64,000 nucleotides of DNA, taken from positions 124,001 through 188,000 of the forward strand of contig SKCR01034812.1 of assembly GCA_019454045.1 (NCBI GenBank), given 5' to 3'. This DNA comes from Zanthoxylum bungeanum. Its lineage: Eukaryota > Streptophyta > Magnoliopsida > Sapindales > Rutaceae. The position numbers and the translations under genes are program-made. Below the pieces are notes generated by a model. It was not told where the DNA came from, searched no databases, and saw only the letters and a list, made by a program, of their open reading frames with translations. Below, piece by piece: positions 24,318 through 64,000 of the stretch. Every line of letters starts with the position of its first letter. Within the stretch, counting starts at the first letter, position 1.

Positions 24318-25397
24318 TTACTTCACAATGAAAGGTCCCGTCCACCTGGATCGCAGCTTTCCCGGGTGAAGATGGAGTCTGGAATCATAAAGATACACCT
24401 TTTGGTTAGGCTCAAAATTCTTCCTCATTATGTGCTTGTCATAGGCAGCTTTCATCTTGGCTTTGTAGATGCGGGAGTTGGCATAGGCATCATTCCGTAA
24501 TTCTTCAAGTTCCGAAAGCTGTAATTGCCTTTGTGCACCTGCAGTACTTAAATCAAAGTTAAGAGTTTTAATGGCCCAATAAGCTCTATGTTCTAACTCA
24601 ACAGGTAAATGACACGCCTTTCCAAAAACAAGCCTATAAAGAGACATCCCAAGTGGGGATTTATAAGCAGTACGTAGAGACCAATCCTTGCGGTCGGGGT
24701 TTACCGTTTTCTCTAGTATCTGTTTTATCTCTCTGTTAGCTAATTCTGCCTGCCCATTTGTCTGCGGGTGATAAGCAGTAGAAATCTTGTACACCATACC
24801 ATACATGCACATCAAGGCTTCAAATGATTGGTTGTAAAAGTGTGTCCCTTGATCACTAATGATGACACGCGGGGTGCCAAACCGTGACAATACATGTTCC
24901 TTCAAGAACTTAACTATAGTAGTACTGTCGTTGGCTCGACATACCAATGCCTCAACCCATTTCGATACATAATCAACTGCGAGCAAGATATATAGGTAGC
25001 CAAAAGAATGTGGAAAAGGTCTCATAAAGTCAATGCCCCAACAATCAAATACTTCAATGACAAGAATAAGGTTAAGAGGCATCATATGATGATAGGACAG
25101 AGCACCAAATTTCTGACACATTTCACAGGAACGGCATAACCCATTTGTATCCATAAACATAGTGGGCCAATAAAAACCACATTGCAAAATTTTTGCAGTA
25201 ATTTTCTTTATTGAGAAATGGCCTCCGCATGCATGGGAATGATAAAAGGTAAGTACACTGAGAACTTCATCTTCACGAATGCACCGTCGAAATATCTGGT
25301 CGGGGTAGTATTTAAATAAGTAGGGGTCATCCCAATAAAAATTACGTACCTCGACCAAGAATTTACGCTTATCATGTGACTCCAAGTGGACGGACAC
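24318..25397 (-). pseudogene. Athila integrase domain
   Basis: An open frame of 359 codons. The zinc domain has [10 protein letters not shown] and CRSCEMC. The catalytic core has D in CWGIDFM, D in IISDQGTHF and E in [12 protein letters not shown], so the triad is complete. The C-terminal part has [20 protein letters not shown], then a stop. Between DWSL and [10 protein letters not shown] about nine residues usual for Athila integrases (the segment ending LWAY) are missing, an in-frame deletion. It belongs to a Pol polyprotein whose upstream frame is broken. Confidence 0.9.
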
Positions 25398-26568
25398 TCA
25401 CCGGAAACTAAATAGTTGACAATGTGTGCATACTATGGTGCTCATGTGACTGTAAAAAGATGTTCATCAGGGAAGTCATCACGAATTGGTGGGCCATCAG
25501 CAGAGTCGTTAAAATCCAAGCGAGATAAGTGATATGCCATCACATTTTCAACACCCTTTTTATCATTGATTATTAGATCAAATTCCTGTAACAATAGGAT
25601 CCACCTAATCAACATTTCCTTAGCATCTTTATCGAAAGAATGTACTTAAGGGCTACATGATCGGTGAACACAGTGATGGGAGAACCAATAAGATATGCAC
25701 GAAATTTGTCTAAAGTAAAGACTACAGTCAACAATTCTTTTTCTGTTGTGGAATAGTTCATTTGGGCACTGTTCAAGGTTCTACTAGCATAATAGACGTC
25801 AAAAGGTTTCCCTTCTCATCTTTGCCTTAAGACTACCCCAACTGCGTAGTCACTGGCATCACACATGATCTCGAATGGTAATGTCCAGTCCGGTGGTTGC
25901 ATGATTGGGGCAGAGGTGAGGTTAGTGACTAATGTTTTGAAGGCGTCGTCACATTCTTGTGTCCATTCAAAGGGAGAGTCCTTAACAAGGAGGTTACATA
26001 ATGGTCTGGAAATAGATGAAAAATTCTGTATGAACCTCTTGTAGAAGCTAGCATGCCCAAGAAAGGATCAAACATCTTTAACAGTTTTGGGTATTGGCAG
26101 CTTGGATATTAATTCGATTTTAGATTTGTCCACTTCGATACCCTTGGAAGAGACAATATGACCTAGAACAATTCCCGAAGGGACCATGAAGTGACATTTT
26201 TCCCAGTTTAGAACGAGGACTTTTTCCTGACAGTGACTTAACACAGCTTTAAGATTAAGTAGGCATGTATCAAAGGAATTACCAAACACGATTAAGTCAT
26301 CCATAAATACTTCCATGCACTTCTCAATCATGTCACTAAAAATACTCAGCATGCATCTCTAAAAAGTGGTAGTAGCATTACATAAACCGAATGGCATGCG
26401 GTGAAAAGTATAAATGCCAAATGGACAGGTGAAAGTGGTCTTATCCTGATCTTCCAAGGAGATCTCAATTTGGTAGTACCTCGAGTATCCATCTAGGAAG
26501 CAGTAGAATGGATGTTCAGCTACCCGCTCGAGAATCTGGTCGATAAAAGGAAGCAAGAAGTTATCCTT
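25398..26568 (-). pseudogene. Athila RT (C-term) and RNase H, broken
   Basis: 26359-26556 reads LPFIDQILERVAEHPFYCF and MPFGLCNATTTF. 26068-26352 has the RT catalytic VFMDDLIVFG and GHIVSSKGIEVDKSKIE. Downstream toward 25600 the pieces FEWTQECDDAFKTL, CDASDYAVGVVL and [10 protein letters not shown] of RNase H can be read across stops and shifts. Confidence 0.88.
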
Positions 26569-28305
26569 TCAGGTGGCAGCATTCAACTTCCTGTAGTCTA
26601 TGCACATACACCAACCTGTGACTACCTTGGTAGGAACCAGTTCTCCTGTCTCATTTTTCACTACAGTAACTCCCGACTTTTTAGGCTCAACCTGCGTAGG
26701 ACTAACCCATTTACTATCAGCAATTGGATATACAATACCCGCATCTAATAACTCAATCACTTCATTTATTACTATTTCCTTCATATTGGGGTTTAGCCTA
26801 CGTTGAGGGTCTCTACGAGGCACATCTCCCTCTTCTAGGTGAACTTTGTGAGAGCAAATCAAGGGGCTGATACCTTTAATGTCTCCAATGGTCCAGCCAA
26901 GTGCCGATTTATGCTCATTTAACATGTCAAGTAATTGCTCCCTTTGTGACGCATTCAGCTCTGATGAGATGATGACGGGAAAGGTGTCACATGGCCCAAG
27001 AAATGCATGTTGAAGCCCTTCTGGTAGTGCCTTTAGTTCAAATTTTGGGGTTTCTACTGCAGAAGGCTTCGGCTTCTCTCTTTCCCCAGGCAAAGCTTCG
27101 AACTGTGGCTGCCATACTCTTGTTCCATGCTTTTGCGAAACGGAACAACCATTAGAGATCTCAGGAATTTCAGGTAGGTCAAGAACATCTAAAACATCTG
27201 AGTGATGGAGAAGATGATCAGGAGGGTGAGAATCATGTGGGATTTCTGGCGCAAGCGCATCTATCAGGTATGTCTGATGACATTCATCGTCATCTTGTGG
27301 TTGTTTCCCAACATGAAAAATGTTTACTTCCAGTGTCATATTCCCGAATGATAATTTCATGAGGCCATTCCTACAGTTAATGAGGGCATTTGCTGTGGCA
27401 AGGAAAGGTCTACCCAGGATCAGTGGAATTTTGGATTCAGAATTTACTACGGACTGGGTATCGAGAATCGGGAAATCTATCGAGTAGTAAAACTTATCGA
27501 CTTTGAGTAAAACATCTTCTACCACTCCTCGTGGATTTATGATAGAACGATCAGCTAGCTGCAAAATTACTGATGTAGGCTTAATTTCTCCTAGACCCAA
27601 CTGCATGTAGATGGAAAAAGGCATGAGGTTAACACTTGCGCCTAAATCTAGTAATGTCTGGCCGAATTCATATGTGCCAATGTGGCAAGTGATAGTGGGA
27701 CAACCCGGATCTGTATATTTTGGCGGGGCCTTTTGCTCAATCACTGCACTTGCTTGTTCCGTCAAGAATGCAGTCTTCTTTACATGATTTTTCCTCTTCA
27801 CGGTGCAGAGATCCTTTAAAAACTTCGCATATGTGGGGACTTGTTTGATCACATGTAGCAATGGAAGGTTGATTTTCACTTGCTTGAGATGCTCTAGGAT
27901 CTCACCATTTGGGTCTACAGCTCTAGTAGTGGGCCTAAGGGCTTGAGGTAAGGGTACTTTCACTAGGGTAGGTGTCATTTGATCCTCCTGAGGGGTATCT
28001 ACACCTTTGTCTTTAGTAGCACCTACAGTATCGGAAGTGTCATGTATCCCTACTTCTTTACCACTCCTAGTGATGATGGCATTTACAACCTTTACAATGG
28101 CTCCCTCATATTCAGCCTGTGCCATGTGTTGCCCCTGTGGATTGGTTTGAGCCTGAGAAGGGAATTTGCCTGGCTCTGTCACACTTAGAGCATTGGTCAA
28201 CTTAGAAACTTGGCTTCTAATCTCCTTATTTTCCTCAACTAATTGAGCTATCATTGACTCCACCTTCTGATTAGTCCTATTCTGGGCCTCCATAAATGTT
28301 TGCAT
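26569..28305 (-). pseudogene. Athila gag C-term-protease-RT(N-term) open frame
   Basis: 578 open codons. The first ~200 residues are the gag tail with a coiled-coil-like start (QNRTNQKVESMIAQLVEEN). A retropepsin follows with LLDLGASVNLMPFSIY, LILGRPFLAT and flap residues. The last ~150 residues are the RT start (LGWTIGDIKGISPLICSHKV, then CMCIDYRKLNAAT) ending in TAG. Being the longest open Athila frame here, it suggests a moderately young copy. Confidence 0.92.
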
Positions 28306-28608
28306 AGTATCCTCTAATGAGTTCCTAGGGTTTGCAGGTGTGTGATATTGGGGAGTACTATAACCTCTAGGTTGTGGTGGCTGAGTTGGTTGCTGAGACT
28401 CTTGTCTCCAACTAAAGTTATGATGGTTCCTTCATCTAGGGTTATAGGTATCTGAGTACAGTGTGTAAGGCTTCCTGTATGTTCCTAATGCATTGCATTG
28501 GTCCTCATATGTTCCCCCAATCTCACCATTTTACGGGGCACTCTGCTAAATTGGCTACTGCATGCATGGTCTTGCTATCATTGGCCTTTAGGGCTCCTAT
28601 CTCTCTGG

Positions 28609-29490
28609 TTAATAGCTCGACATGTGCCTTAAGGTTATATTCTTCTCTAAGGTGGTATATGCTTCTACTAGAAGAAGTAGGGTGTGCCTAGTAGTGCTAT
28701 CTACGGCGCTTGGCCCGGTCCATCTGTGAGACTTTTCTGCTAATTCATCTAGGTACTCTAGTGCCTCATCAGGGTCTTTGCGGATAAACTCTCCATTGCA
28801 CATTGTTTCCACGAATTGGTACTCTCTAGGGGTCAGTCCATCATAGAAGTAGCTTATTAGGCGCCAACTCTCATAGCCATGGTGGGGACAACTAGCTAGC
28901 TTTTCCTTATACCTCTCCCACGCTTGGTAGAGGGTCTCACTGTCCTTTTGGGCGAAGGTAGAGATTTCCCGTTTCAAGGCACTAGTCTTATGATGAGGGA
29001 AATATTTATTGAAAAATGCCTGAGTCATTTCGCCCCATGATCCTATTGACCGGGGTCCCAAAGAGTATAGCCAACTCTTAGCTCTATCCCTAAGGGCAAA
29101 AGGGAAGAACTTGAGCCTAATGGTGTCTGTGGTCCCCAACCGGTCATGGAAGGTCGCTACTACCTCTTCATATTCCCTAATGTGCACATAGGGATTCTCG
29201 TTCTCCAACCCATGGAAGGTTGGAAGGTACTGTATCATCCCAGGTTTGAATTCTATGTGAGGGGCATCAGGGGTAAGCATAATGAATGAAGGTGTAGCGG
29301 TGGGAGTAGAATGAAGGTACTCTTCAAGAGTCCTCACAGGTAGTCTCTCGTAGTCGTTCATGGTGTGCCTACTAGATCTAGATGGTGCGGCGAAATTTTT
29401 TTCAAATGTATTCTCGGAGTCTGAATCCGACTCTGAGTCTTCATGTACTATTCTTGCAAACCTCCCCAACCGGTCCGTAAGTCTAGGCAT
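28609..29490 (-). pseudogene. Athila gag, N-terminal part
   Basis: The start is chosen at MPRLTDRLGRFARIV (ATG at 29490); the open frame extends upstream but that part is leader. Retrotransposon gag core: SFIMLTPDAPHIEFKPGMI, FFPFALRDRAKSWLYSL, FFNKYFPHHKT and ISTFAQKDSETLYQAWERYK. A frameshift near 28700 ends similarity; the rest of gag resumes at 28305 after a stop-rich gap. A good 3' splice-site-like tract precedes the start in the leader. Confidence 0.9.
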
Positions 29491-29744
29491 ATACTTCAAA
29501 CTCAATTTATACGAGAAACTAAAGCGACCTAAATAACTAAGTAAGCCAAATAAATAAATAAAGAAAAGAATAACTAAAAACAATAATAAGAATAAAGTAA
29601 GTAAAAACTAACTAAAATTTTAACTAAAATAAACAGGCAATAAATAAGTAAATAAACAAAACTAAAATAAGATAAAAGTAAATAGGAAAGAAGTTACCGC
29701 GTCGTTGTTGACTAAGTGAATTGCTCATTGAGTTGTCAACCGTC

Positions 29745-29762
29745 TCCCCGGCAACGGCGCCA
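29745..29762 (-). other. Athila primer-binding site
   Basis: The plus strand reads TCCCCGGCAACGGCGCCA, so the element strand has TGGCGCCGTTGCCGGGGA, the standard Athila primer site. It lies a few bases from the 5' LTR end. Confidence 0.92.
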
Positions 29763-34719: not shown

Positions 34720-36245
34720 GTCGAGGCCCATATTATCAATAGTTTGGGAATGAATCCCAATGGTCGAAGCACCTCATCATCATGAAAAAAATAAACTCCC
34801 CAGTGGATCGAAGATTCACGCAGATGGACCAAAATGCCATCACCCATTCAGTTCGGGAATGAATCCCAGAGGTCAAAGAACCTCAAGATCGAAGCATCTT
34901 AAAGATAAAAGCATCTCACACCCAGCATAGTTCGGGAACAAATCCCAAGGGTCGAAGCACTTCGCCATCAACTCAACTCAGTTCAGGAATAAATCCCAAA
35001 GATCCAAGCATCTCACACCCAGCATGATTCAGGAACAAATCCCAGGGGTCGAAGTACCTCGCCATCAACTCAACTCAGTTCGGGAATAAATCCAGAGATC
35101 GAAGCATCTCACACCCAACATGGTTCGGGAACAAATCCCAGGGGTCGAAGCACCTCGCCATCAATTAAACTCAGTTCGGGAATAAATCCCAGAGATCGAA
35201 GCATCTCACACCCAGCATAGTTCAGGAACAAATCCTAGGGGTCGAAGCACATCGCCATCAACTCAACTCAGTTCGAGAATAAATCCCAGAGATCGAAGAA
35301 TATCACACCCAGCATGGTTTGGGAATAAATCTCAGGGGTCGAAGCACCTCGCCATCAACTCAACTCAGTTCGGGAATAAATCCTAGAGATCGAAGCATAT
35401 CACACCCAGCATGGTTCAGGAATAAATCCCAGGGGTCGAAGCACCTCGCCATCAACTCAACTCAGTTCAGGAATAAATCCCAGAGATCAACTCAACTCAG
35501 TTCGGGAATAAATCCCAAAGATCAAATTATCTCACACCCAGTATGGTTCGGGAACAAATCCCAGGGGCCGAAGCACCTCGCCATCAACTCAACTCAGTTC
35601 GGGAATAAATCCCAGAGATCGAAGCATCTCACACCCAACATGGTTCGGGAACAAATCACAGGGTTTGAAGCACCTCGCCATCAACTCAACTCAGTTTGGG
35701 AATAAATCCCAAAGATCGAAGCATCTCACACCCAGCATGGTTTGGGAATAAATCCTAGGGGTCGAAGCACCTCGCCAGCAACTCAACTCAGTTCGGGAAT
35801 AAATCCTAGAGATCAAAGCATCTCACACCCAGCATGGTTCGGGAATAAATCCTATGGGTCGAAGCACCTCGCCGTCAACTCAACTCAGTTCGGGAATAAA
35901 TCCCAGAGATCGAAGCATCTCACACCCAGCATGGTTCGGGAATAAATCTCAGGGGTCGAAGCACCTCGCCATCAACTAAACTCAGTTCGGGAATAAATCC
36001 CAAAGATCGAAGCATCTCACACCCATGGGTCGAAGCACCTCGCCATCAACTAAACTCAGTTCGGGAATAAATCCCAGATATCGAAGCATCTCACACCCAG
36101 GGGTCGAAGCACCTCTCTATCAACTCAACTCAGTTCGAGAATAAATCTCAGGGGTTGAAGCATCTCACAACCAAGGGTCGAAGCACCTCGCCATCAACTC
36201 AACTCAGTTCGGGAATGAATCTTATAGATCGAAGCATCTCGCAAA
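34720..36245 (+). repeat. 97-bp dimeric tandem array in Tat 3' region
   Basis: About 15 units. Each has two related halves built on GTTCGGGAATAAATCCCAG and GTTCGGGAACAAATCCCAG, followed by ATCGAAGCATCTCACACCC or GTCGAAGCACCTCGCCATC. The period between 35171 and 35268 is 97 bp. The ends are more degenerate, the middle more homogeneous, and units near 36010-36170 lack one half. Tat-group elements are known to carry variable arrays here that can seed satellites. Confidence 0.9.
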
Positions 36246-45853: not shown

Positions 45854-46218
45854 ATGTCAAGTAGTGTTATCGGTGCAAGCTCAATGAATAAGGGTAAGTG
45901 TAAAGTTGTTGAACAACTCCCCCCACACATTACCTTTACGATGATAATTTTGAAAATATGGTTAAGGAGGAAATACAAAGGAAACACTATCCTACTCAAG
46001 ATAGCAACCAAAAATATGCATTAACTAATGAAGAGGAGAGGCAATGTTCCGAAGAATATGGCCAAGAAGAATGCATGATGGAAAAACGAAAGTCATTAAC
46101 ACACACTTCCGGCATTTCCACCATATACATCACAAAGAAACAAAAAGACGACAATATGTTTGAGGCAATTTGTAATTATTGTAAAAATATCTAACAACTT
46201 TAAATTGGGAGGGGTATG
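45854..46218 (+). pseudogene. hAT transposase, N-terminal part
   Basis: Start ATG 45854 (MSSSVIGASSMNKGKCKVV). A frame change leads into 45958-46194 with an acidic segment and FEAICNYCKN, the CxxC half of a BED zinc finger. The frame meets a stop and then the Athila insertion at 46219; the His half follows at 55535 (GTFKRHLEK). Confidence 0.85.
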
Positions 46219-48006
46219 TGACCGGCGTAAACACACACGTATAACGCAAGCGCACGTATCGTTCAAGTAGTATAAAAATATCGATCCCACGAGGACTTAA
46301 TATCTAATCTATTAATTTTATGAGGTCAAATGATTACTAGTATCTAACAGGTTGTTTGATTGATTTGAAATGGTGACGATTCTAAATTTAAAACAAGTAA
46401 ATAAAATTGTTCGAAACTATGTTTTAAGAAAATTCAATATTAAAAACTATCTAGGGTTGTGATTTCTTCCAATATCATTTTAAAGATGAAGTGGTTATCT
46501 TAAAGTTGGGTAATATATTGATTTATTAACCTGGAACACTAAATTATGTGTAAGCCTCTGTCGATGGTCAGACACAAATACACAGTTTAAACCAATTGAA
46601 CCATATGTCTATGTCAACCAAATTATCTGGATTCATTAAGTTTAAGTTCCAATTATGGCTACCCCCGCTCGACATGTATATGTCTATCCTGTAAGGAAAT
46701 TTATTAAAGGGTTATCTATCCTCAAGGAAGATCGTGAACTATTGAGTCTAAGGTCTTAAACTTAAAATCGCTATGTCTAGTTCATTTTAAGTTTCCCAGT
46801 TCAATTTTATTAATGGCCAGTTAATGAAAAAGTATTAAGATTAAGACTCAATAAATAAATCTTTATATTACCCAAGTTATAATCTAACCCCTTATAAACC
46901 GGCGATATTGGATTTCATCACAACCCCAGATAACTGGCTTAGTTACGACACATATTTACGGGTAGTAAAAAAATTAAATAAAATAAAATACATAAAGTAA
47001 AATACTGAAAATTAAATACTGAAAAGTAAATGCTGAAAGTAAATGCTGCTGAAAGTAAATGCTGAAATTAAATAATGAAAATTAAATGCTGAAAGTAAAT
47101 TACTGAAAGTAAATTGCTGAAAGTAAATTGCTGAAAATGTAAATTGCTGAAAAGTAAATTGCTGAAAGTAAATTACTGAAAAGTAAAAACTGAAAATTAA
47201 AGAAAGAAAAGTATTGTGCGTAAAAGTAAATTGTGGAAAGTAAAAACTGAAAAGTAAAGAAAAGAAAGTGCGAAAGCGGAAATTAATTACTGAAAGCTGT
47301 AAATAAACAAACAAGATACAATCTTCTTAGTATTCTTAAGGATTTCTTAGAAGAAAGTATGAATTTTACAAATGAAATGGCTTGGTATTATAGGCAAAAT
47401 TTTGCCTCCATCAAATCATCCACCAAATCAATTATTAATTGCTCCACTAATTGCTCCACCAAATCCATTATTAATTGCTCCACTAATCTCTTATCATGTT
47501 TGGTGATGATTTGATAATTTTTATTATTTATTTATTAATTTATTTTTTGCTTTGAAAATGATTGAAAGTGACTTTAATAATTACACACAACTCACTTCTG
47601 GATGGTTCATCAATTTCGGGCATGAAATCATCAGAATTCGAAATTATTTTGTCTTTCAAAGCTGTAGATCTTTGAGTCTTCTTTAATCTGGAACTTGAAT
47701 CAGCTCAATCCGATATTGGAATAAAAGGTTATGCCCAAAATACGAAAGATGTGCAAACCTGGAATTTCCAAAATTGCACTTCGTCAAAAACGCCCTTTCA
47801 AGTTTCCAATCTCCAAAATTAAAATATCAAGTCCAATAATTGCCCTTATTTGACCCATATTTCGTCCTAAATGATTTCATTGAGATCCTATATTATTTTA
47901 TATGCAAAATAAACTAAAACACATCAAAACGTTCATCAAACCCGAGAAACTAAACAAAATATTAAGTTAAAAGGGCGGTAAATATTGATATATTTTCCGC
48001 TCATCA
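46219..48006 (-). repeat. 3' LTR of the second Athila element
   Basis: 1788 bp. Very close to the 5' LTR; differences are mainly length changes in a TGAAAGTAAATTGC-type minisatellite (47000-47290) and an added CCACTAATTGCTCCACCAA segment near 47450. Its TATA (47386-47392) has lost one base compared with the 5' LTR. Confidence 0.93.
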
Positions 48007-49338
48007 CACCCCCAAACCTAAAATTTTGCTAGTCCTCGAGCAAAACAATAAAATAAAATACAAGAAACAATTAAAATTAAACTAAGCCACTTTCGTAGGG
48101 ATCACGGTTGCATTTTGCATATGCAACAAGCCTTTAAACCCCTAGGTGTCCCTAGTGGACGAGTTATAGTCTCGTGGGGGCTTACAACAACGATACCCAC
48201 AAATTTTTTACAAAAGTAAAAAGGTAGTGAAACTAATGCACACAAAAGCAAAAAGACAAGAGAAAAGAGAATAAAGAAGTTAGTGACTAATCAGGTGAAA
48301 CTTCTACTCCAAATCAATAGTTGTTTTGTTTCATTCTAAATTACCGAATAAGTAAATTCTCCGATTATTTTTACCATTCTCCATATACACAGTCGACAAA
48401 ATATTAATCAACTCATTTTTGCCCACAACAGTCATAAGTGCAGTTGATAAGAGAGTAATATTTTGTCCTAAAGTTCTATCAGATTTCACACCTTTTTGTA
48501 GCAATGGAATAATTTTTCTGATTTTTCAGATTTTTTCTTTGATTTTTCTCTATTTTTTATTTATATACAATATCTTCCATCTATATAGCGAGTGTTGGGT
48601 CGGTGGCTCCCAAACCAGTTGGCTTTAGGGCACCAGGTGTTAAGACACCCCTACGAACTTAATTACTCAGACTTCAGATATATATATATTTGCAGCATCT
48701 TTGATCCATGTAACGAGCTTTGGGCCAGTGACTCCCAAACCAGTTGGTTTTAGGGCACTAGGTGTTAAAACACCCTTACAGACTTAATAACTCGGATCTC
48801 AGACGTTTTTTTTTTTTTTTTTACTCCATTGCTTTTTGAGATGCTTCCTCTAATTAAACTAAAGCACTGAATATTACAAACTTTTCAATTACAGCTCATG
48901 TCCGTATGTTACTATATATGTTGATAATATCTGCTAACTGAACATATGAAGATCCATTTTAGTCTGTTTTATGGAGAATTCACAAATTAAATAATTCAAA
49001 ATGAAATAAACAAAAATTAACTTATTTTGAAAATAGGCTTGAGATACGTCTCAGGAGTGGAAACTCCTTACTCAGATATCTCTTACCAATTTCACCTTTT
49101 AGTCAAAATAAAAACACAAAAACGCAAAATATTTTTGTAATTTTTGAAAATTTTTCAATTTTTTTGTATTTTTCGAAAAATTTTGGACTAAAAATAAAAA
49201 CAACACACAAACTAAAAATAAGGTACTGATCAACTAATTCCCTCCCCCAAACCTAAATGAGACATTGTCCTCAATGTCTTAAAAAGTAGAAGAAGAGTTT
49301 AGAAAATAATACCTGGTTAGCTGAAATTCTACAGGAAA
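48007..49338 (-). other. 3' untranslated region of the second Athila
   Basis: No gene. It contains, in plus-strand order: the terminal polypurine tract complement (48007-48021); the block shared with the first Athila (48087-48203); two tandem ~125-bp segments with CTCCCAAACCAGTTGG and GGGCACCAGGTGTTAAGACA-like cores (about 48575-48680 and 48705-48805); a T17 run (about 48807); and an internal polypurine tract complement with the conserved CATTGTCCTCAATG motif (49240-49277). Confidence 0.8.
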
Positions 49339-49485
49339 TTAAAGGTTAAGATCCAGATTAATCCTACGCCTCTTACCACGATCGTCCTCAGACCAATTTA
49401 TCTTTGAAAGGATAGGGTCAACTCGTGGTTCATAGGCTATGAGTTGGTCTATTAGATCCGAGCAGTTAGTTCTGGGTAAAGAGGA
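49339..49485 (-). pseudogene. Out-of-frame C-terminal extension of the LOG-like gene
   Basis: Overlapping the LOG stop in another frame, TNCSDLIDQLIAYEPRVDP continues the way LOG C-termini do (an L-x-x-L-x-x-YxP helix, then a basic-acidic tail). It ends GKRRR followed by INLDLNL and TAA. LDLNL fits the LxLxL form of an EAR-type repression motif, next to a basic cluster. A single-base shift near 49470-49485 would explain the split. Confidence 0.6.
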
Positions 49486-49993
49486 GTTCTTTCAAAGGTT
49501 TTGACACGAACCCATTTCTCCGGGCATCATCAAGAAACACACAAAGAAAATCATAAAATCCATCAACGTTGTACAACCCAATTGGTTTTTGGTGTATGTT
49601 CAGGTTCGCCCAAGATAGCACAATAAAAATTTCCTCCAATGTACCCAAGCCACCTGGCAAAGCAATAAAAGCATCAGCACGGTTAATCATTTCTACCAAA
49701 CATTCAGACATACCTGGCACGATCAGTTCCTCTCCATTTGATGGTTCAATAATATTTGCTTCTGCCAAGGGTTTTGGGATGATTCCCAAAACGTGACTGC
49801 CTCTTTCCTGTACAGCTTTTGAAATGATCCCCATAAGTCCAAGATTGCCTCCGCCATATATTAAGTGCATATTTCTTGCAGCTAAGACTCGACCCAATTC
49901 TTGTGCTGCTTCTACGTATTGTGGCTTAACACCAACACTACTACCGCAAAACACACAGATGTTTTCAACTCGTCTTCTTGAAGTGGCTTCCAT
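49466..49993 (-). CDS. LOG-family (cytokinin riboside monophosphate phosphoribohydrolase-like) cargo gene
   Basis: 175 codons from ATG 49993 (A at -3, G at +4) to TAA, no intron. CVFCGSS (13-19) is the N-terminal nucleotide-binding strand, GGGNLGLMG (47-55) the Rossmann loop and PGGLGTLEE (113-121) the family signature with catalytic Glu121. NIHQKPIGLYNVDGFY (132-147) is typical of plant LOG proteins, which release active cytokinin base from its nucleotide in the cytosol. In LOGs the segment before the signature is normally H-x-R-[KM]-A-x-M with an essential Arg; here it is SECLVEM, with Cys98 (TGT, one C-to-T change from CGT). The usual C-terminal helix continues in another frame (49339-49467), so a late frameshift truncates the protein. 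It sits in the env-like slot of an Athila element, 71 nt past a splice-acceptor-like site. Family certain; activity doubtful. Confidence 0.9.
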   Translation of the reverse strand: MEATSRRRVENICVFCGSSVGVKPQYVEAAQELGRVLAARNMHLIYGGGNLGLMGIISKAVQERGSHVLGIIPKPLAEANIIEPSNGEELIVPGMSECLVEMINRADAFIALPGGLGTLEEIFIVLSWANLNIHQKPIGLYNVDGFYDFLCVFLDDARRNGFVSKPLKELLFTQN

Positions 49994-50063
49994 TTTTTTA
50001 TATGTATTTCTTTCTCAACTCTGGATGCCTTCAAAAGTGCAATGACTGGCTGAATTTATAGTA

Positions 50064-50090
50064 CCTGAAAAGGGTGAGTAAAAATAGCAC
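50064..50090 (-). promoter_or_regulatory. Candidate splice acceptor before the LOG-like gene
   Basis: The minus strand reads GCTATTTTTACTCACCCTTT then TCAG/GT, with the exon side starting at 50064, 71 nt before the ATG. It is pyrimidine-rich with no other AG between tract and site. Confidence 0.5.
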
Positions 50091-50254
50091 AAGTATCTTC
50101 CAGAGGACGATTAGTAGTGAAATAATATCGTGATAGTTAAAAAGGTCTGGATCCTGTCGGAGAAAATAAAAGAAAACAACAAAACAAATCACAATTATTA
50201 AGAAAAGACAAAGAGATATAATATTTACAAGAAAAGTAACGGCTTGATTGACGT

Positions 50255-50803
50255 CTATGCATCAGGGACAAGCTTCCCATCCAATTTTCTTATAAACTGG
50301 CAAACAGGGTCTTTTTGAGTCAGATTCCCAAGACTTAATTGTTGTCTTTCTTTTTGGAATTGTGTATGTAATTTGCGAATAGCTATGTGAACATATCCAC
50401 TGGGATGTGTCTCAAGAGTTAAAGATATATCATCTAAAGACTCCTTACTCAAGCCATCCCTAATGAATTTATTTTTTTCTTCGCGATTATCAGACACCAT
50501 TCCTAAATAACGACAATGAGTATTGCAATTCCAGCGTGCACATTTGTAACAAACACCCATTTGTTTAGCTCTACGTTTCTTTGCATAGGTGCTTCTTCCA
50601 AAACCAGGCAGATGTGAAATAAAAGAGTCAGAAGACTCACCTGCCAATCGGACTCGTGCTTCAATTACCCAACGAATGTCATTAGGAATACCTTTAATCA
50701 TCAGTAATCTCATCCGTTCCAAGCGAGCTTTGTTAACTTTCATCAGAGATTTTTGAGGGAGGGAAGGAAATTGCTTGCGAAGATTTGCGAGAGCTTCTTC
50801 CAT
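50255..50803 (-). CDS. Cysteine-rich nucleic-acid-binding protein, carla-like virus type, cargo gene
   Basis: 182 codons, intact, from ATG 50803 (A at -3, G at +4). The open frame extends 17 codons upstream, but the ATG lies 16 nt past a splice-acceptor-like site, so this start is chosen. Residues 69-80 (GRSTYAKKRRAK) form a basic, nuclear-signal-like patch; Cys85, 88, 93 and 97 form C-x2-C-x4-C-x3-C. A GRS-x-YA, basic run, then Cys cluster and a later KFI-x-DG is the layout of the small cysteine-rich proteins at the 3' end of carlavirus-type genomes (Carla_C4/NABP family), which bind nucleic acid and act as silencing suppressors or regulators. The N-terminal 60 and C-terminal 60 residues match nothing I know; Cys168 is isolated. 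Alternative: a zinc-binding protein of retroelement origin. Lies 140 nt after the integrase tail, same strand. Confidence 0.65.
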   Translation of the reverse strand: MEEALANLRKQFPSLPQKSLMKVNKARLERMRLLMIKGIPNDIRWVIEARVRLAGESSDSFISHLPGFGRSTYAKKRRAKQMGVCYKCARWNCNTHCRYLGMVSDNREEKNKFIRDGLSKESLDDISLTLETHPSGYVHIAIRKLHTQFQKERQQLSLGNLTQKDPVCQFIRKLDGKLVPDA

Positions 50804-50818
50804 CTTGAAATGACTAAA

Positions 50819-50855
50819 CCTGCAAAAATTAAACACACAAAAAAGAAAACACACC
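50819..50855 (-). promoter_or_regulatory. Candidate splice acceptor before the cysteine-rich gene
   Basis: The minus strand has a long T-rich tract (TTTTCTTTTTTGTGTGTTTA) then ATTTTTGCAG/GTTTAG, exon side at 50819, 16 nt before ATG 50803. Strong match to the plant 3' splice consensus. Confidence 0.6.
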
Positions 50856-50942
50856 AGATCACAATATATACAAAAATTGTATGGGTTGCCTCCCTGCTAG
50901 CGCTAAGTTTAGAGTCGTCAGCCAGACTTGACTTCTCGAACG

Positions 50943-51275
50943 TTAAGCTGGATCTGAAAGTGTAACACTTTCTTTTTGTCGCTCAAATGATTCTCCCCAG
51001 TAGTGCTTGACACGCTTGTTTTTAACCTTGAAAGTCTTGTTGGAGTCAGGATCATGTATCTCAACGGCTCTATTTGGTAAAACTTTGGTGATCACAAATG
51101 GACCTGACCACCGTGATTTTGGCTTCCATGGGAAGAATTTCACCCTTGATTTGTTTAACAGTACCTTCTGCCCTGGTTCCAGTTGTATGCGTACTAACTT
51201 TTCATCATGTCTTTTCTTGCCCTTTTCTTTGTACAATTTGGCATCCTCATAAGGCTGATTGTGAAATTCCTCCAA
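50943..51275 (-). pseudogene. Integrase C-terminal tail of the second Athila
   Basis: 110 codons: EEFHNQPYEDAKLYKEKGKK, then KVLLNKSRVKFFPWKPKSRW and GPFVITKVLPNRAVEIHD. This is the DNA-binding tail of Athila integrases; zinc domain and D-D-E core are missing. Upstream it abuts the protease tail at about 51280-51330, so about 2-3 kb of pol has been deleted. Just downstream the minus strand has TAGCGCTAGCAGGGAGGC and AACCCA, a sequence often found after integrase in Athila elements. Confidence 0.88.
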
Positions 51276-51333
51276 TTCGTTGAGCTGGTGGAACTTTTCT
51301 CTTCTGTTGCTTGTAGAGCAAGAATTGGCTCTT

Positions 51334-52522
51334 TCAGTGAAAAAGATGCTTTATCTTTAGGCTCCACAGGCAATTGACATGTTTTAAGTTTTTCAGTAGA
51401 ACTTTGCATTGCATGGAGTTCTGAATGGTACTGTGTATCACATCAAGTTTGAAACATTCCTCCTTCTTTTCGTCATCTGGGAAATTCATGGCTTTAAAAA
51501 CATTGAATGTTACTTCTTGGTCTTGTACCCTCATGGTTAGTTCTCCTTTTTGTACATCAATAATGGTTCGACCTGTAGCCAAGAATGGTCTCCCGAGGAT
51601 GATTGGCACGTCTGCGTCTTCCTCCATATCAAGGACAATAAAATCTGCGGGGAAAATGAATTTGTCAACCTTGACCAGCACATCCTCAACTACGCCTCTT
51701 GGAAATACGAGCGTTCTATCAGCAAGTTGTAGTGAGACTAAAGTGGGCATTGTTTCTCCAATCTGCAGTTTCCTGAAAATAGAAAAAAGGCATCAAGTTA
51801 ACACTAGCACCTAAATCACACAGAGCCTTACCGAAGTCATGTTCTCCTATGGTGCAAGGAACAGTGAAACTGCCAGGATCTTTCAACTTTGGAGGAAGTT
51901 TTCTCTGAATGATGGCGCTGCATTCTTCTGATAATGCTACTGTCTCATAATCTCTCAATCTCCGCTTTCGTGAAAGAATATCTTTCATGATTTTGGCATA
52001 GCTGGGCATTTGTTCCAACGCTTCTGCAAATGGAATGTTGATATGCAGCTTTTTGAACACCTCCAAGAATCGAGCAAACTGCTTGTCCAGTTTATTCTTC
52101 TGAAGATGCTGAGGAAAATGTGGAGGTGGAGTTATCTGTTCTTTTTCCTTTGCTTCTTTTTCCTCCATCTGTTGCTTTGTTTCTTTTGGAAAATCTTCAA
52201 TTGTTGTTTCCTTGATTCCAACATCTTTGTTGATTTCAGTACCACTTTTTAACATGATGGCATGACATTGCTCCTTCCCCATGTTCCTTGGATTTGGCTC
52301 TGTGTTGCTAGGAAGGGTACCTGGCGGTCTGTAACTCTGAGCATTGGCCAGTTGTCCAATTTGATTCTCCAGTGCTTTAATAGAAGCTGATTGAATTTGA
52401 ATTAATGCAGCTTGGGATTGAAACATAGCATCATATCTTGCTGCTTGAGACTGAAACATAGTATCATATCTTGCTGCTTGAGAGTCATGTTTTGCTTCTA
52501 TCTTTTTCAAGTGGGTCAACAC
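51334..52522 (-). pseudogene. Athila gag tail and protease, frameshifted
   Basis: 51719-52522 encodes a coiled-coil-like gag tail with an internal repeat (SQAARYDTMFQ then SQAARYDAMFQ then SQAALIQ), a Lys/Glu-rich segment, and the protease start CDLGASVNLMPF. A frameshift near 51780 moves to 51334-51750, which has LQLADRTLVFPRGVVEDVLV and IILGRPFLATGR. Together they form a complete Athila retropepsin apart from the shift. Confidence 0.9.
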
Positions 52523-52552
52523 TTCTGTTATTCCTGGTTCATTTGCCTGTTC

Positions 52553-53666
52553 CTAGCTTTTGTTATGTTGTTGGAATCCGGGTGGTGGATTGTTCATTTT
52601 CCCTGAATTGTTGCTCCATGCGAAATTGAGATGATTCCTCCACCCTGGGTTGTAGGTGTTGGAATATGGAATGTTCCCCTGTCTGTTGAAATTATTGACA
52701 TAATTCACCGTTTCTTTATGTTGGTTGAAAGATTCTGACTTAGGTGCTCCTTCAAATGGTGAACTTGTGGATCCACCATTAACTTTTATGTTAAGAGTTT
52801 CCAGATTTTTGCAAATCACATCCAGCTTGGAATTCAGTGCTGTGTTGGCTCCAACTTCATAAATTCCTGCAATTCTTTGGATCATGCTCCTTTCTATTGG
52901 CCATAAAGAATTGTTGTTGGCCATTTCTTCGATTAGGTCTCAGGCTTCATCTTCTCTTTTTGCCATTAAAGGCTCTTCCAGCAGCAGCATCGATTGTGGT
53001 TCTCATTATTCCAGAAAGTTCATTATAGAATGTTTGGACTTGAAGCCATTTTGGAATCTCATGGTGAGGACATTTCCGGAGCAAATCTTTGTACCTTTCC
53101 CAAGATTCGCAGAGGGATTCTGAATCTTGTTGTACAAAGGATGTGATGTCATTCCTCAGCTTTCCGATTCTGGCTGGTGGAAAGTACTTTGCAAGAAATT
53201 TGGTGGCTAAGGTGTTCCAAGTTGTGATAGAACCTGCTGGTAGTGAATGTAGCCAAGCTTTAGCTCTGTCCTTCAAGGAGTATGGGAAAACACGCAGTCT
53301 CATTGCTTCTTCTGATGCTCTGTTGTAGTTGAAAGTGCGGCAAACTTCCAGGAAGTTACTGATGTGGGCATTAGGATCTTCAGTTGCATTCCCCCCGAAC
53401 TGAACTGACTGCTGAATCATCTGAATGCATATTTTGATGTCACACGCATTTGCTGGTAAGGGAGGAAGTACAATACAGGAAATGAGTCTGTTAACCACCG
53501 AAATGGTTCTGTCTCGAATGGAAATTGGTGGTGCAACCTCCAACGGTTCAGGTTCCATGTTGACTAAAGCTTCTTGGCCTTCTCGCCTTTCCCTTCGAAA
53601 CTGTCTGATGGTTCTTTCAATTTCCGGGTCAAGCGGTCGGAGTTCAAAGCTTCTGGTTCGTCTCAT
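52553..53666 (-). pseudogene. gag of the second Athila element, one frameshift
   Basis: The start is set at MRRTRSFELRPLDPEIERTI (ATG 53666), 15 nt after a splice-acceptor-like site. Gag core: FPYSLKDRAKAWLHSLPAG, FLAKYFPPARIGKLR and DITSFVQQDSESLCESWERY. The frame stops at 52947 after AFNGKKRR; the continuation in another frame is 52553-52924 (MANNNSLWPIERSMIQRIAG), then a stop before the coiled-coil part. One shift and one stop separate it from an intact gag. Confidence 0.9.
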
Positions 53667-53680
53667 GAAGTTTCTGAAAA

Positions 53681-53712
53681 CCTGAAACACAAGAAAAAAA
53701 AACAATAAGTAA
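53681..53712 (-). promoter_or_regulatory. Candidate splice acceptor before gag
   Basis: The minus strand has ATTGTTTTTTTTTCTTGTGT then TTCAG/GTTTTC, exon side at 53681. It resembles the sites before both cargo genes in position and sequence. Confidence 0.5.
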
Positions 53713-53772
53713 AAAGAAATTAGATACAAGTAACGTATCTAACCCCAAAATTAATAGTGAAAGATAAATAAG

Positions 53773-53790
53773 TCCCCGGCAACGGCGCCA
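53773..53790 (-). other. Primer-binding site of the second Athila
   Basis: The plus strand reads TCCCCGGCAACGGCGCCA, identical over these 18 bases to the site of the first Athila (29745-29762). Confidence 0.93.
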
Positions 53791-53796
53791 AAAACT

Positions 53797-55532
53797 TGAC
53801 CGGCGTAAACACACACGTATAACGCAAGCGCACGTATCGTTCAAGTATATAAAAAATCGATCCCACGAGGACTTAATATCTAATCTATTATTTTATGAGG
53901 TCAAATGATTACTAGTATCTAACAGGTTGTTTGATTGATTTGAAATAGTGACGATTCTAAATTTAAAAACAAGTAAATAAAATTGTTCGAAAGTAGGTTT
54001 TAAGAAAATTTAATATTAAAAACTATCTAGGGTTGTGATTTCTTCCAATATCATTTTAAAGATGAAGTGGTTATCTTAAGTTGGGTAATATATTGATTTA
54101 TTAACCTGGAACACTAAATTATGTGTAAGCCTCTGTCGATGGTCAGACACAAATACCCAGTTTAACCCAATTGAACCATATGTCTATGTCAACCAAATTA
54201 TCTGGATTCATTAAGTTTAAGTTCCAATTATGGCTACCCCCGCCCGACAGATATATGTCTATCCTGTAAGAAAATCTATTAAAGGGTTATCTATCCTCAA
54301 GGAAGATCGTGGACTATTGAGTCTAAGGTCTTAAACTTAAAATCCTTATGTCTAGTTCATTTTAAGTTTCCCAGTTCAATTTTATTAATGGCCAGTTAAT
54401 GAAAAAACATTAAGATTAAGACTCAATAAATAAATCTTTATATTACCCAAGCTATAATCTAACCCCTTATAAACCGGCGATATTGGATTTCATCATAACC
54501 CCAGATAACTGGCTTAGTTACGACACATATTTATGGGTAGTAAAAAAAACTTAAATAAAATAAAAGACATAAAGTAAAATACTGAAAATTAAATACTGAA
54601 AAGTAAATGCTGAAAGAAAATGCTGAAATTAAATACTGAAAATTAAATGCTGAAAGTAATTACTGAAAATAAATTGCTTGAAAGTAAATTGCTGAAAAGT
54701 AAATTGCTGAAAAGTAAATTGCTGAAAGTAAATTACTGAAAAGTAAAAACTGAAAATTAAAGAAAGAAAAGTATTGTGCGTAAAAGTAAATTGCGGAAAG
54801 TAAAAACTGAAAAGTAAAGAAAAGAAAGTGCGAAAGCGGAAATTAATTACTGAAAGCTGTAAATAAACAAACAAGATACAATCTTCTTAGTATTCTTAAG
54901 GATTCCTTAGAAGAAAGTATGAATTTTACAATGAAATGGCTTGGTATTTATAGGCAAAATTTTGCCTCCATCAAATCATCCACCAAATCAATTATTAATT
55001 GCTCCACTAATTTCTTTATATGTTGTGTTGGGATGATTTGATAATTTTATTATTTATTTATTAATTTATTTTTTACTTTGAAAATGATTGAAAGTGACTT
55101 TAATAATTACACACAACACACTTCTGGATGGTTCATCAATTTCGGGCATCCAATCGTCCGAATTCAAAATTACTTTGTCTTTCAAAGTTGTAGATCTTTG
55201 AGTCTTCTTTAATCTGGAACTTGAATCAACTCAATCCGATATTGGAGTAAAATGTTATGCCCAAAATACGACAGATGAGCAAAATTGGAATTTCCAAAAC
55301 TGCACTTCGTCAAAAACGCCCTTTCAAGTTTCCAATCTCCAAAATTAAAATATCAAGTCCAATAATTGCCCTTATTTGACCCATATTTTGTCCTAAATGA
55401 TTTCATTGAGATCCGATATTATTTTATCTGTAAAATAAACTAAAACACATCAAAACGTTCATCAAACCCGAGAAACTAAACAAAATATTAAGTTAAAAGT
55501 GCGGTAAATATTGATATATTTTCCGCTCATCA
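53797..55532 (-). repeat. 5' LTR of the second Athila element
   Basis: 1736 bp with intact ends and an intact minus-strand TATAAATA (54945-54952). The GAAAGTAAATTGCT minisatellite (54570-54740) is shorter than in the 3' LTR. Confidence 0.93.
54945..54952 (-). promoter_or_regulatory. TATA box of the 5' LTR
   Basis: TATAAATA on the minus strand; the same sequence occurs in the plus-strand LTR of this family near 63463. It would drive gag and, by splicing, the cargo genes. Confidence 0.65.
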
Positions 55533-57310
55533 GTATGGTACTTTTAAAAGGCATTTGGAGAAAAACATCAATCAAATCTAGGAATCAATAAAAGCCAATC
55601 TCAAATTTCCTGGTACGTAATTTCTAAAACGTCATCTCAACATTTATTTCAATATAGTGATAATAAAAATAAAGAAGAATTAGCAAAAATGGTTTCTAAT
55701 TGTCATTTATCTTTTAATTTTTGCGAAAATAAAAATTTTGATCGTTATTGTCAAAACGCTTTAAATCCTAGTGTTAAACATATCCATAGAAACACATTAA
55801 AAGATAAATTTTTACTATGTATAATAAGGAAAAGATGATTTAAAAATTTTATTTTCAAATTTAAATGGACGTGTTTCAATTTATAGTGATATTTGAAGTG
55901 ATTATTGGCAAAGACATTCATATATGGGTATCACATATCATGGGATTGATAGTGAATGGAATATACAAAAAAGATTAATTACCTATCGTGCTTTTAATGA
56001 TAGACATACTGCTTTAAATATTTATAAATTAATGAAAGTTATTTTGGAAGAATATAAAATAATTCATAAAAAAATTCAGTTTCTTTTGATAATGTAGTAG
56101 CAAATACTGCATCAATTTCTGATCTTAAATCAATTTGTCAACCTAATATTCGTGGTAGCTTTTTCATATAAGATGTGCATGTCATGTTTTAAATTTATGT
56201 GTGCAAGATGGTTTATAATCATTAGATACTTACATTTCTCCTATTATAAAAGCAATTTCACATTTATGGGTTCATCCTCAAATAATAAAAAAATGGTTTA
56301 AATTCTGTAAAATAAATGGTAAGTATCCTAAAACATTTTCTTCTAATGTTCCAATGCGTTGTAACTCAACTTATTAAATGTTGCATGAATCTTATGAAAA
56401 TAAATAATTATTGTGTTCATTTTTTTATAGTAATATTTCTAACATTATGATTTTTCCTCAAACCTGGGATAGTTGTGTAAAATTTTTAGACATTTTAAAA
56501 AAAATTAATGATGCTACGCATGTTTTTAGTGGTTTTTATTTTCCAACTTCACATTTATTGATAAATGAATTTTATAATATTACTTGTACATTATATGAAT
56601 ATGTAAATAATGATATATTAACTAATTGTATCTATTCAATGAAAAGAAAATGGTTAAATTATTTTAAAATAATTCCACCAATTTTTCTTGTAGATATTAT
56701 TTTTGATCCTTGGTGTAAATTCGAAATGTTAACTATTTATTTAACTAGATATTATTTATATTTAAATCTTTTAGATGATTATGAAATTAATGTTTCTAAG
56801 ATTATTGATTAAGTAAGAAAAATGTACTTGATTTATATTATGAATTTTCTACTTTATTTGGTGATCCAATATGAGTTAGTAAATTTTCTTGTACTGAAGT
56901 TCAGAATGAGCCATCATCAAAAAATAAACTAGGTGACTGTCTTCTTCTATAAAAAAAGGCAAAGGCATGTGTTGAGTGGTTGCTCAATAACTGAACTTGA
57001 TGTTTATCTAACAACCATTTTTCGTGTTTGGTGATAATAGTATAGGGAAGGATTTTCCAATTCTTGAATAGTGGAGTTGGCACGCCAATACTTTTTCTGT
57101 CCTCACACAGATGGCTAAACATATTTTACCAAAATCGGTCTCTACTGTTGCAGTAGAACAAGCTTTTAGTGCTGAGGGAATATTTTGGATGCGAAGCGTT
57201 TAAAATTGAGTCCTGAAGTATTGGAAGTCCAAGTATGTTTGGCAGACTGGGTAAAACAGAAGTAAGGGAACAAGATTTACAAGAACAAGAAAGTGAAGAA
57301 TACGAAATGA
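55533..57310 (+). pseudogene. hAT transposase, core and C-terminal part
   Basis: It opens with GTFKRHLEKN, the second half of the BED finger cut by the Athila insertion. Recognisable hAT pieces follow across stops: HSYMGITYHGIDSEWNIQKR, FNDRHTALNI, FSFDNVVANTASI, HIRCACHVLNLCVQDGL, an open 133-codon stretch at 56411-56812 (FDPWCKFEMLT), and VSTVAVEQAFSAEG at 57134-57175 with RLKLSPEVLEVQVCLADWVK (dimerisation domain) after a one-base shift. TGG-to-TGA and similar stops make it non-functional. Confidence 0.9.
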
Positions 57311-62840: not shown

Positions 62841-64000
62841 TGATGAGCGGAAAATATATCAATATTTACCGCCCCTTTTACTTAATATTTTGTTTAGTTT
62901 CTCGGGTTTGATGAACGTTTTGATATGTTTTAGTTTATTTTGGAGATAAAATAATATTGGGACTTAATGAAATCATTTAGGACGAAATATGGGTCAAATA
63001 AGGGCAAAAATTGGACTTGACATATTAATTTTGGAGATTGGAAACTTGAAAGGGCGTTTTAACGAAGTGCAGTTTTGGAAATTCCAGTTTTGTGCATCTG
63101 TCGTATTTTGGGCATAACTTTTTACTCCGATATCGGATTGAGCTGATTCAGGTTCCAGATTAAAGAAGACGCAAAGATCTACAGTTTTGAAAGACAAAAT
63201 AATTTCTAATTCTGAAGATTTCATGCCCGAAATTGATAAACCATCCAGAAGTGTGTTGTGTGTAATTATTAAAGTCACTTTCAATCATTTTCAAAGCAAA
63301 AAAATAAATTAATAAATAAATAATAAAAATTATCAAATCATCACCAAACATGATAAGAGATTAGTGGAGCAATTAATAATGGATTTGGTGGAGCAATTAG
63401 TGGAGCAATTAGTGGAGCAATTAATAATTTATTTGGTGGATGATTTGATGGAGGCAAAATTTTGCCTATAAATACCAAGCCATTTCATTTGTAAAATTTA
63501 TACTTTCTTCTTTGAAAATTCCTAATGAATAAATAAGAAGATTGTATCTTGTTTGTTTATTTACAGCTTGCAGTAATTAATTTCCGCTTTCGCACTTTCT
63601 TTTCTATACTTTTCAGTTTTTACTTTCCGTAATTTACTTTTACACACAAACCTTTTCTTTCTTTACTTTTGCAGTTTTTATTTTTCAAGCAATGAGGAGG
63701 TAACTCCCCCTTGCTGGGGTAAAAGGTAAAGCTTTTATTATTGCTATCTAGATTAATCTCCCTTAAATATAAAATATAAACTATTTAAAACCTGACTTAA
63801 TGAGGATACCGCTATATTGGCCGGTTGGAAATTAATTATAAATTGGTTTTAACCTGACTAAGTATGGATACCGCCTGGTTGGTCGGTTGGTAATTAATTA
63901 TTAATTTGACTTAATCAGGATACCGCCTATATGGCTGGTTGGTAATTATCACGCAAAGTTAATATATTATATTAAGGGAGATATCTAAAATAGTAGTAAT
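62841..64000 (+). repeat. LTR of the second Athila family, plus orientation, cut by window end
   Basis: It starts TGATGAGCGGAAAATATATC, the reverse complement of the right end of the LTR at 53797-55532, and follows it to the TATA (near 63463) and the TTTACTTTC/CAGTTTTTACT minisatellite, then diverges. After TTAGG of the copia element. A solo LTR or a full element cannot be told apart here. Confidence 0.88.

Follow-up and report, generated by a model that had tools for sequence, protein, structure and literature searches.

The extra open reading frames (ORFs) found towards the 3' end of Athila retrotransposons have been described as env-like, Athila ORF-1 or Transposase_32-like, with one product predicted to be nuclear, as far as the accessible text of the reports goes (PMC6317226, PMC7264820, PMC11728184). 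Here we describe an Athila-type element of Zanthoxylum bungeanum whose cargo differs from these, being instead a gene for a cysteine-rich protein (CRP) that resembles those of carlaviruses and a gene of the LOG family. The element lies in a stretch of 64,000 nucleotides (contig SKCR01034812.1, positions 124,001 to 188,000), the whole of which is referred to as the window. Viral CRPs act as silencing suppressors and pathogenicity factors in which the basic nuclear localization signal and the zinc finger matter (PMC12172455, available text). A flexivirid-related sequence has also been described in the cucumber genome, where it is an endogenous betaflexivirus sequence resembling the replicase rather than a CRP (PMC3136472); the main text of that paper mentions neither cysteine-rich nor nucleic acid-binding proteins.

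Closest on the LOG side are the consensus Ty3/gypsy elements of Citrus and Populus trichocarpa, in which a LOG (YgdH) domain is already known (PMC9289625, citing Steinbauerova 2011). They likewise hold a LOG-family gene inside, and the Populus proteins share the LOG clade with the present copies, but the available portion of that report has nothing on a CRP or a pairing, on an altered pocket or on a C-terminal tail. The same report assigns to Phalaenopsis gypsy elements an AlkB-type m6A demethylase with activity shown in vitro and a proposed bearing on host surveillance (PMC9289625). These, too, are plant gypsy elements with an extra enzyme of a kind found in flexivirids; according to the text available, however, they belong to an Ogre/Tat-like lineage and carry another enzyme. 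A preliminary description of the locus knew of no plant retroelement with this pair. A LOG in plant gypsy elements is, however, already in print (PMC9289625). In open-licence full text we found neither a CRP reported from retroelements nor any account of the pair or the tail (the tail was not searched by name), and the main text of a review of extra ORFs and of a systematic survey mentions neither carlavirus nor 'lonely'. Within the open-licence literature, the CRP, the pair and the tail thus appear to be unreported.

A gene pair in an Athila-type lineage

The studied element shows all the hallmarks of a long terminal repeat (LTR) retrotransposon: two LTRs with TG...CA ends, a primer binding site (PBS), a purine-rich tract and a target site duplication (Table 1). 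From the PBS it runs through gag, protease (PR), an integrase (IN) remnant, CRP, LOG and a long 3' untranslated part to the 3' LTR. The LTRs are identical at 1679 of 1727 ungapped alignment columns (97%; Kimura two-parameter distance 0.028) and are flanked by GTATG on both sides, in agreement with the clean repeats and duplications of the preliminary description. Its two open frames, placed on the gag strand between the integrase remnant and the 3' LTR, also begin and end at the ATG and stop codons that it gave. Absent from that description were the damage to the LOG copy and the loss of the reverse transcriptase (RT), RNase H (RH) and integrase core. When taken from a related piece of the genome (L044), these three domains had no match within the studied element and matched other elements of the window. 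The window copy is therefore a non-autonomous deletion derivative, which would depend on the proteins of other copies for its movement. We are highly confident of the element's identity and anatomy as described.

Both genes recur in the 3.96-Gb genome. The 150 best-scored CRP matches are 92-100% identical to the window CRP over nearly its whole length, 136 of them without a stop, and the 150 best-scored LOG matches are all 92-100% identical to the window LOG; as lists of best matches that include the window copy, they give lower bounds on number and are biased to intact copies. All seven CRP-selected loci besides the window have LOG downstream and an integrase tail upstream. Conversely, CRP sequence lies upstream in 27 of the 29 LOG-selected loci besides the window, in some of them (L014, L024, L039) as a partial copy, and its frame often breaks near residues 140-165. 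The search for the frames in other copies, which the preliminary description had proposed, thus bears out its claim that both genes travelled inside an Athila-type element, for the pair recurs in many copies. Neither of the outcomes that it had named as refuting, absence of the frames from other Athila copies or a lack of profile support for the two families, was observed.

The LOG-selected loci differ in how much of pol precedes the pair. In 11 of the 29 (L012, L016, L020, L021, L022, L024, L032, L034, L035, L038 and L039) the integrase extends upstream past the point of the window copy's deletion, mostly to the edge of the fetched stretch and in L032 by only 18 residues. The integrase core itself was seen in five of these 11, directly in L024 and L039 and through the upstream pieces L043-L045 in L012, L020 and L034. 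Two of the pieces (L044 and L045) contain gag, RT, RNase H and integrase, and L043 contains gag, RT and integrase in broken frames. A layout like that of the window copy, from protease to integrase tail, is found in 12 loci, another or unclear layout in three (L030, L031, L037) and no integrase in three (L014, L026, L028). All three deletion copies that were sampled upstream (L040-L042) contain the LTR, gag, the protease frame and the integrase tail only. Since pol is present in related CRP-LOG copies alongside copies of the deletion form, we assign the pair to a lineage whose pol is complete and of which a deletion form has multiplied. Two near-identical CRP-LOG loci (L034 and L035) lie 26 kb apart on C31827 and represent either a local duplication or an assembly artefact; as a near twin, L035 was left out of the ratio and intactness counts given below.

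Athila is marked off from Tat by the order gag-PR-RT-RH-IN without an additional aRH domain (PMC6317226, available text). L044 and L045 contain RVT_1, RT_RNaseH and rve, and their frames end inside the integrase; within them no RNase H match was found outside the RT-RNase H region at E ≤ 0.001, the region past the integrase not being covered. The PBS string TGGCGCCGTTGCCGGGG, presumably of tRNA-Asp type, is present in five of the six other upstream pieces. We take the PBS and the integrase of the family to resemble those of Athila, and on this resemblance and the domain order we base a tentative assignment to the Athila clade of Ty3 (OTA superclade).

A CRP is also found without a LOG. A contig of 3330 bp filed under a metagenome-assembled genome of Candidatus Nomurabacteria (L001, DAIEQH010000041.1), probably plant contamination of the bacterial assembly, holds the end of an Athila-type pol with an open integrase frame (rve and H2C2). 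A CRP 67% identical to that of the window starts about 200 bases past the integrase stop, and no LOG match was found in the remaining ~980 bases. As the CRP follows the integrase without a LOG, the CRP may be the older cargo and the LOG optional. A match to TTGAGGACAATG, a motif downstream of LOG in the window copy, also lies downstream of the CRP in L001. This exact 12-mer was rejected as a landmark of the family because it is present in only 3 of 38 own-genome loci. Equal sizes of the contigs with CRP and LOG matches were likewise set aside as proof of linkage and are suggestive only: two coincidences of at least 2000 bases (4511 and 8723) compare with ~0.09 expected, among 110 of 120 CRP matches and 95 of 120 LOG matches, with chromosome-size contigs and matches lacking a length left out.

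The two cargo proteins

The window CRP scores above the cut-offs of two families of viral proteins, Carla_C4 (PF01623; 28.8 bits against 20.9) and Viral_NABP (PF05515; 28.7 against 23), which upholds its earlier reading as carla-like. Among 92 aligned CRPs, window included, 80 match Carla_C4 and 79 match Viral_NABP at E ≤ 0.001. A protein search gave 319 matches at E ≤ 1e-3 among 578 candidates; the 120 listed of these are 54-90% identical over 64-100% of the length, and the frames are therefore not chance ones. The relatives come from rosids and one asterid, with Xanthoceras, Acer, Populus, Rhamnella and Orobanche among the named sources. Exactly 182 residues are found in 61 of the 120 listed. 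Across 120-121 sequences, conservation is 94-98% for the four finger cysteines and 99% for His133. In an Orobanche gene model (P0112) the CRP is preceded by a stretch resembling the protease frame of the studied element, and hence the Orobanche CRP is also placed in such elements.

The nucleic-acid-binding proteins of carlaviruses, vitiviruses, trichoviruses and mandariviruses (PF01623, PF05515) show the same arrangement, a basic stretch with a cysteine finger after it. The element's protein differs in being encoded after pol, in its length of 182 residues, in a long conserved C-terminal part and in the finger CxxCx4Cx3C, the usual spacing of the viral finger being wider. A mere zinc knuckle of gag was ruled out, as gag is separate and upstream. 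Its place in an LTR element, outside any flexivirid RNA genome, makes the CRP a relative of viral proteins and not a viral gene in its native context. In IMG/VR, no confirmed relative was found with the window CRP, nor with the alignments of CRPs and of LOGs.

How the resemblance to viruses arose can be read in two ways. The profile matches indicate kinship between the CRP and the nucleic-acid-binding zinc-finger proteins of carlaviruses and related viruses, and the silencing-suppressor class proposed for it earlier stands as a family resemblance only. An element- or host-derived zinc-finger protein, convergent on the viral proteins or ancestral to them, would agree with the modest E-values, 1e-6 in the window copy and no better than 1e-8 in any sequence, with a Carla_C4 match confined to 34 residues around the basic stretch and the finger, and with a direction of transfer that the present data do not reveal. 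We consider such an origin unlikely, given that two Pfam families match, one across 108 residues, and that, among the first 18 hits of the CRP model in BFVD, 16 bear the names of plant-virus nucleic-acid- or RNA-binding proteins or silencing suppressors, all with E ≥ 0.018.

The LOG frame, too, was rightly assigned to its family, with scores above cut-off for Lysine_decarbox (115.7 bits against 27) and TIGR00730 (163 against 96) and the PGGxGTxxE motif present as LPGGLGTLEE. The window frame stops at residue 175, compared with 217 in most close relatives; the C-terminal ~41 residues, which include the tail KRRRINLDLNL with its LxLxL, are in another frame, and the catalytic Arg (Arg99 of CgLOG) is a Cys. 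The frameshift and the lost Arg suggest that this copy is probably inactive. In the genome as a whole, the Arg is kept in 32 of 37 LOG loci and both Glu in all 37, window included. The Arg codon is changed to Cys, His or stop in five of the 37 (L002, L009, L027, L034 and L035), changes that C-to-T decay would produce when the CG of an Arg CGN codon is methylated.

The preliminary description had taken the protein for a hormone-activating enzyme, which is doubtful in view of its pocket and of the Arg lost from the window copy. According to the available text of PMC4979012, His97, Lys100 and Glu125 (CgLOG numbering) line the prenyl/adenine pocket in CgLOG, AtLOG3 and CpLOG. In the 37 own-genome loci, window included, these residues are without exception Ser, Leu and Ile. 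We also compared element-type LOGs, defined as the 120 best matches of a search with the 175-residue window LOG, and in these Lys100, Glu125 and His97 are kept in only 12%, 12% and 35%. The NCBIfam equivalog for cytokinin LOGs, furthermore, has a cut-off of 300 bits, and the window LOG scores 112.6. A true cytokinin-activating enzyme, altering cell division or meristem state to the benefit of the element, is therefore improbable in our view, even with the features of such enzymes that remain: the PGGxGTxEE positions, kept in 96-100% of 91 element-type LOGs (the Leu in 90%), the catalytic Arg, kept in 87% of them, a pocket Trp invariant in 18 aligned LOG sequences, and a predicted LOG fold in a relative (P0121) whose nearest structure is Arabidopsis LOG3 (2a33; template modelling score 0.94 by target length).

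What sets the element-type proteins apart is their C-terminus. An LxLxL motif ends 66 of 92 element-type LOGs and none of 119 host LOGs, and a basic cluster is found in 82 of 92 against 1 of 119. The query lacked the tail; the host set, having been retrieved with LOG3, is of LOG1/LOG3 type. Of 20 open full-length copies in the genome, 19 have the LxLxL and 15 end in GKRRRINLDLNL. We take the motif to be a putative EAR (ethylene-responsive element-binding factor-associated amphiphilic repression) motif, of the type that binds TOPLESS. A tree rooted on a Pseudomonas LOG, for which 30 proteins of a separate list of 120 and the element-type matches of 205-245 residues were sampled, placed all 93 element-type LOGs (four of them own-genome copies) in one clade (support 0.93) and all 31 host LOGs in the other (0.99). 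Location in an element is observed for the own-genome copies only, and we infer it for the other element-type LOGs from the clade. To judge by their sequences, the element LOGs descend from a LOG-type phosphoribohydrolase and are distinguished from host LOGs by a basic C-terminus with an EAR-like LxLxL. Three Populus proteins named LOGL10 (P0168, P0173 and P0176) are among the element-type matches.

Anatomy and surroundings of the window copy

The features of the studied element, which is on the minus strand, and of its neighbours are collected in Table 1. The integrase remnant has no Pfam match of its own. The protease frame, which scores 16.9 bits against RVP_2 (cut-off 20.3), was assigned by a motif that we take to be that of the protease. 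The snoR71 match antisense to gag means either that the element contains a snoRNA-like stretch or that retrotransposon sequence has found its way into this Rfam family. No CRP or LOG matches were found in the second Ty3 element of the window.

Table 1. Features of the studied element and of its surroundings, as positions in the 64,000-nucleotide window
Feature	Position	Strand	Basis or score
Ty1/copia reverse-transcriptase fragment (RVT_2)	2399-2998	+	
Tandem array of 60-bp units	5609-6025		
Further Ty3 pol with RT, RNase H and integrase; part of it occurs twice, 3.45 kb apart; more distant from the studied family	15506-21352	+	
Second Ty3 element, Athila-like (gag, RT, RNase H, integrase, same PBS string)	24318-29762	-	
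Tandem array of ~97-bp units with 74-bp variants, ~90% alike	34909-36240		
Target site duplication GTATG (left)	46214-46218	.	sequence
Studied Ty3/gypsy LTR element, whole	46219-55532	-	
3' LTR, reading TGATGAGCGG...CGGTCA on the minus strand	46219-48006	-	LTR alignment
Purine-rich tract GGTTTGGGGGTG ahead of the 3' LTR	48007-48018	-	sequence
Two 121-bp direct repeats, 79% alike, in the 3' untranslated part	48558-48803	-	self-blastn
Motif TTGAGGACAATG...GGTTTGGGGGAGGG, downstream of LOG	49240-49290	-	sequence
Remainder of the LOG reading, C-terminal ~41 residues (...GKRRRINLDLNL), other frame (frameshift)	49342-49464	-	
LOG-family frame, ATG 49993, stop 49466, 175 residues, catalytic Arg replaced by Cys	49466-49993	-	
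CRP, ATG 50803, stop 50255, 182 residues, CxxCx4Cx3C after KKRRAK, carlavirus nucleic-acid-binding family	50255-50803	-	
Integrase C-terminal remnant in a 135-residue frame	50943-51350	-	47% over 114 columns with the open integrase of L001
Protease frame, joined directly to the integrase remnant	51334-51792	-	motif and sub-threshold RVP_2
gag, C-terminal part	51719-52552	-	32% to the matching frame of the second element
gag	52947-53738	-	Retrotrans_gag, E 4.7e-21
snoR71 match, antisense inside gag	53056-53162	+	Rfam, 47.9 bits (cut-off 40)
Primer binding site TGGCGCCGTTGCCGGGG	53774-53790	-	sequence
5' LTR	53797-55532	-	LTR alignment
Target site duplication GTATG (right)	55533-55537	.	sequence
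hAT-like transposase RNase-H fragment, just beyond the right end of the element	56408-56812	+	
Partial LTR of the studied family, 92% to the 3' LTR, opposite orientation, near the window edge	62841-63687	+	

Possible roles of the cargo

The best explanation as a whole, which we regard as moderately probable, is an Athila-type family whose fuller members have the order gag-PR-RT-RH-IN-CRP-LOG and whose cargo favours the expression of the element. Both proteins would be translated from the LTR transcript and act in the nucleus. There the CRP would bind nucleic acid and, by analogy with its viral relatives, blunt silencing or redirect transcription; the LOG would use its altered nucleotide pocket and/or recruit TOPLESS-type co-repressors through its tail, and together they would help the element to be expressed in its host cell. 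For the LOG, a task in the nucleus, either hydrolysing nucleotides with an altered specificity or serving as an adaptor for co-repressors, would fit better than plain hormone activation, because the hydrolase core is kept, the cytokinin pocket is lost and the tail resembles both a nuclear signal and an EAR motif. The parts of this explanation carry different weight. That the cargo has any host- or silencing-directed function is possible, if somewhat short of probable, and a specific nuclear/EAR role is doubtful.

Selection was assessed between distant elements and within the genome. A comparison of the CRPs of L001 and the window gave a ratio of nonsynonymous to synonymous substitution (dN/dS) of 0.25 at a dS of 0.87, which points to long-term constraint on the CRP between distant elements. 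Within the genome, the corresponding ratio of polymorphisms (pN/pS) was 0.15-0.24 for a frame in loci picked by that same frame. We rejected these low values as proof of selection, since the loci had been picked by similarity to the same protein and crossed sets, in which one frame is read in loci picked by the other, gave 0.50-0.51. The dN/dS comparison across copies proposed in the preliminary description thus supports constraint on the CRP against L001, but the evidence for constraint within this genome is weak.

Several results weigh against the proposed explanation. In the crossed sets, pN/pS was 0.50 for the CRP (26 LOG-selected loci) and 0.51 for the LOG (8 CRP-selected loci), values not clearly lower than those of the leftover integrase tail (0.43 and 0.77). 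A stop codon interrupts 12 of the 26 CRP copies in LOG-selected loci, and an intact CRP is found in just 1 of 10 copies whose integrase extends beyond the deletion point and in 5 of 12 deletion-form copies; the LOG, which was the selecting frame, is intact in 6 of 10 and 8 of 12. The pair is not obligatory, as L001 shows no LOG. The LxLxL is missing from 26 of the 92 element-type LOGs, several of which end in KKRRLA or KRRRLD, and from 1 of the 20 open full-length own-genome copies. The AlphaFold model of the CRP is weak (predicted local distance difference test 69, predicted template modelling score 0.33), and none of its 48 BFVD matches reaches E 0.001. The crossed ratios and the rarity of intact CRPs beside a longer integrase, together with the damaged window LOG, would be expected if CRP and LOG were passengers, captured long ago, copied by hitchhiking and useless now, at least in this genome. 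We nevertheless think it unlikely that they are mere passengers, for the length of the CRP and its finger residues are kept among the relatives, its dN/dS to the foreign copy is low, the PGGxGTxEE positions persist across the element-type LOGs, and most of the best CRP matches in the genome, in a list biased to intact copies, have no stop.

The proposed explanation also has a wider form, which we hold to be improbable: an Athila lineage spread across flowering plants with a nuclear counter-defence module of two proteins. In it, a virus-type CRP would act against silencing or reprogram transcription, and a re-purposed LOG would have a changed base pocket, perhaps to hydrolyse another nucleotide such as a nucleotide immune signal, and a basic LxLxL tail that brings TOPLESS-type co-repressors to the chromatin of the host or the element.

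Some genes annotated as hormone genes of the host may belong to retrotransposons, and caution is due with genes annotated as LOG, such as LOGL10 of Populus, that belong to the element-type clade. Little is known of what most extra ORFs of plant LTR elements do, and the CRP-LOG copies are numerous and open enough for direct tests. If the proposed explanation is true, plant retrotransposons would share counter-defence tools with RNA viruses.

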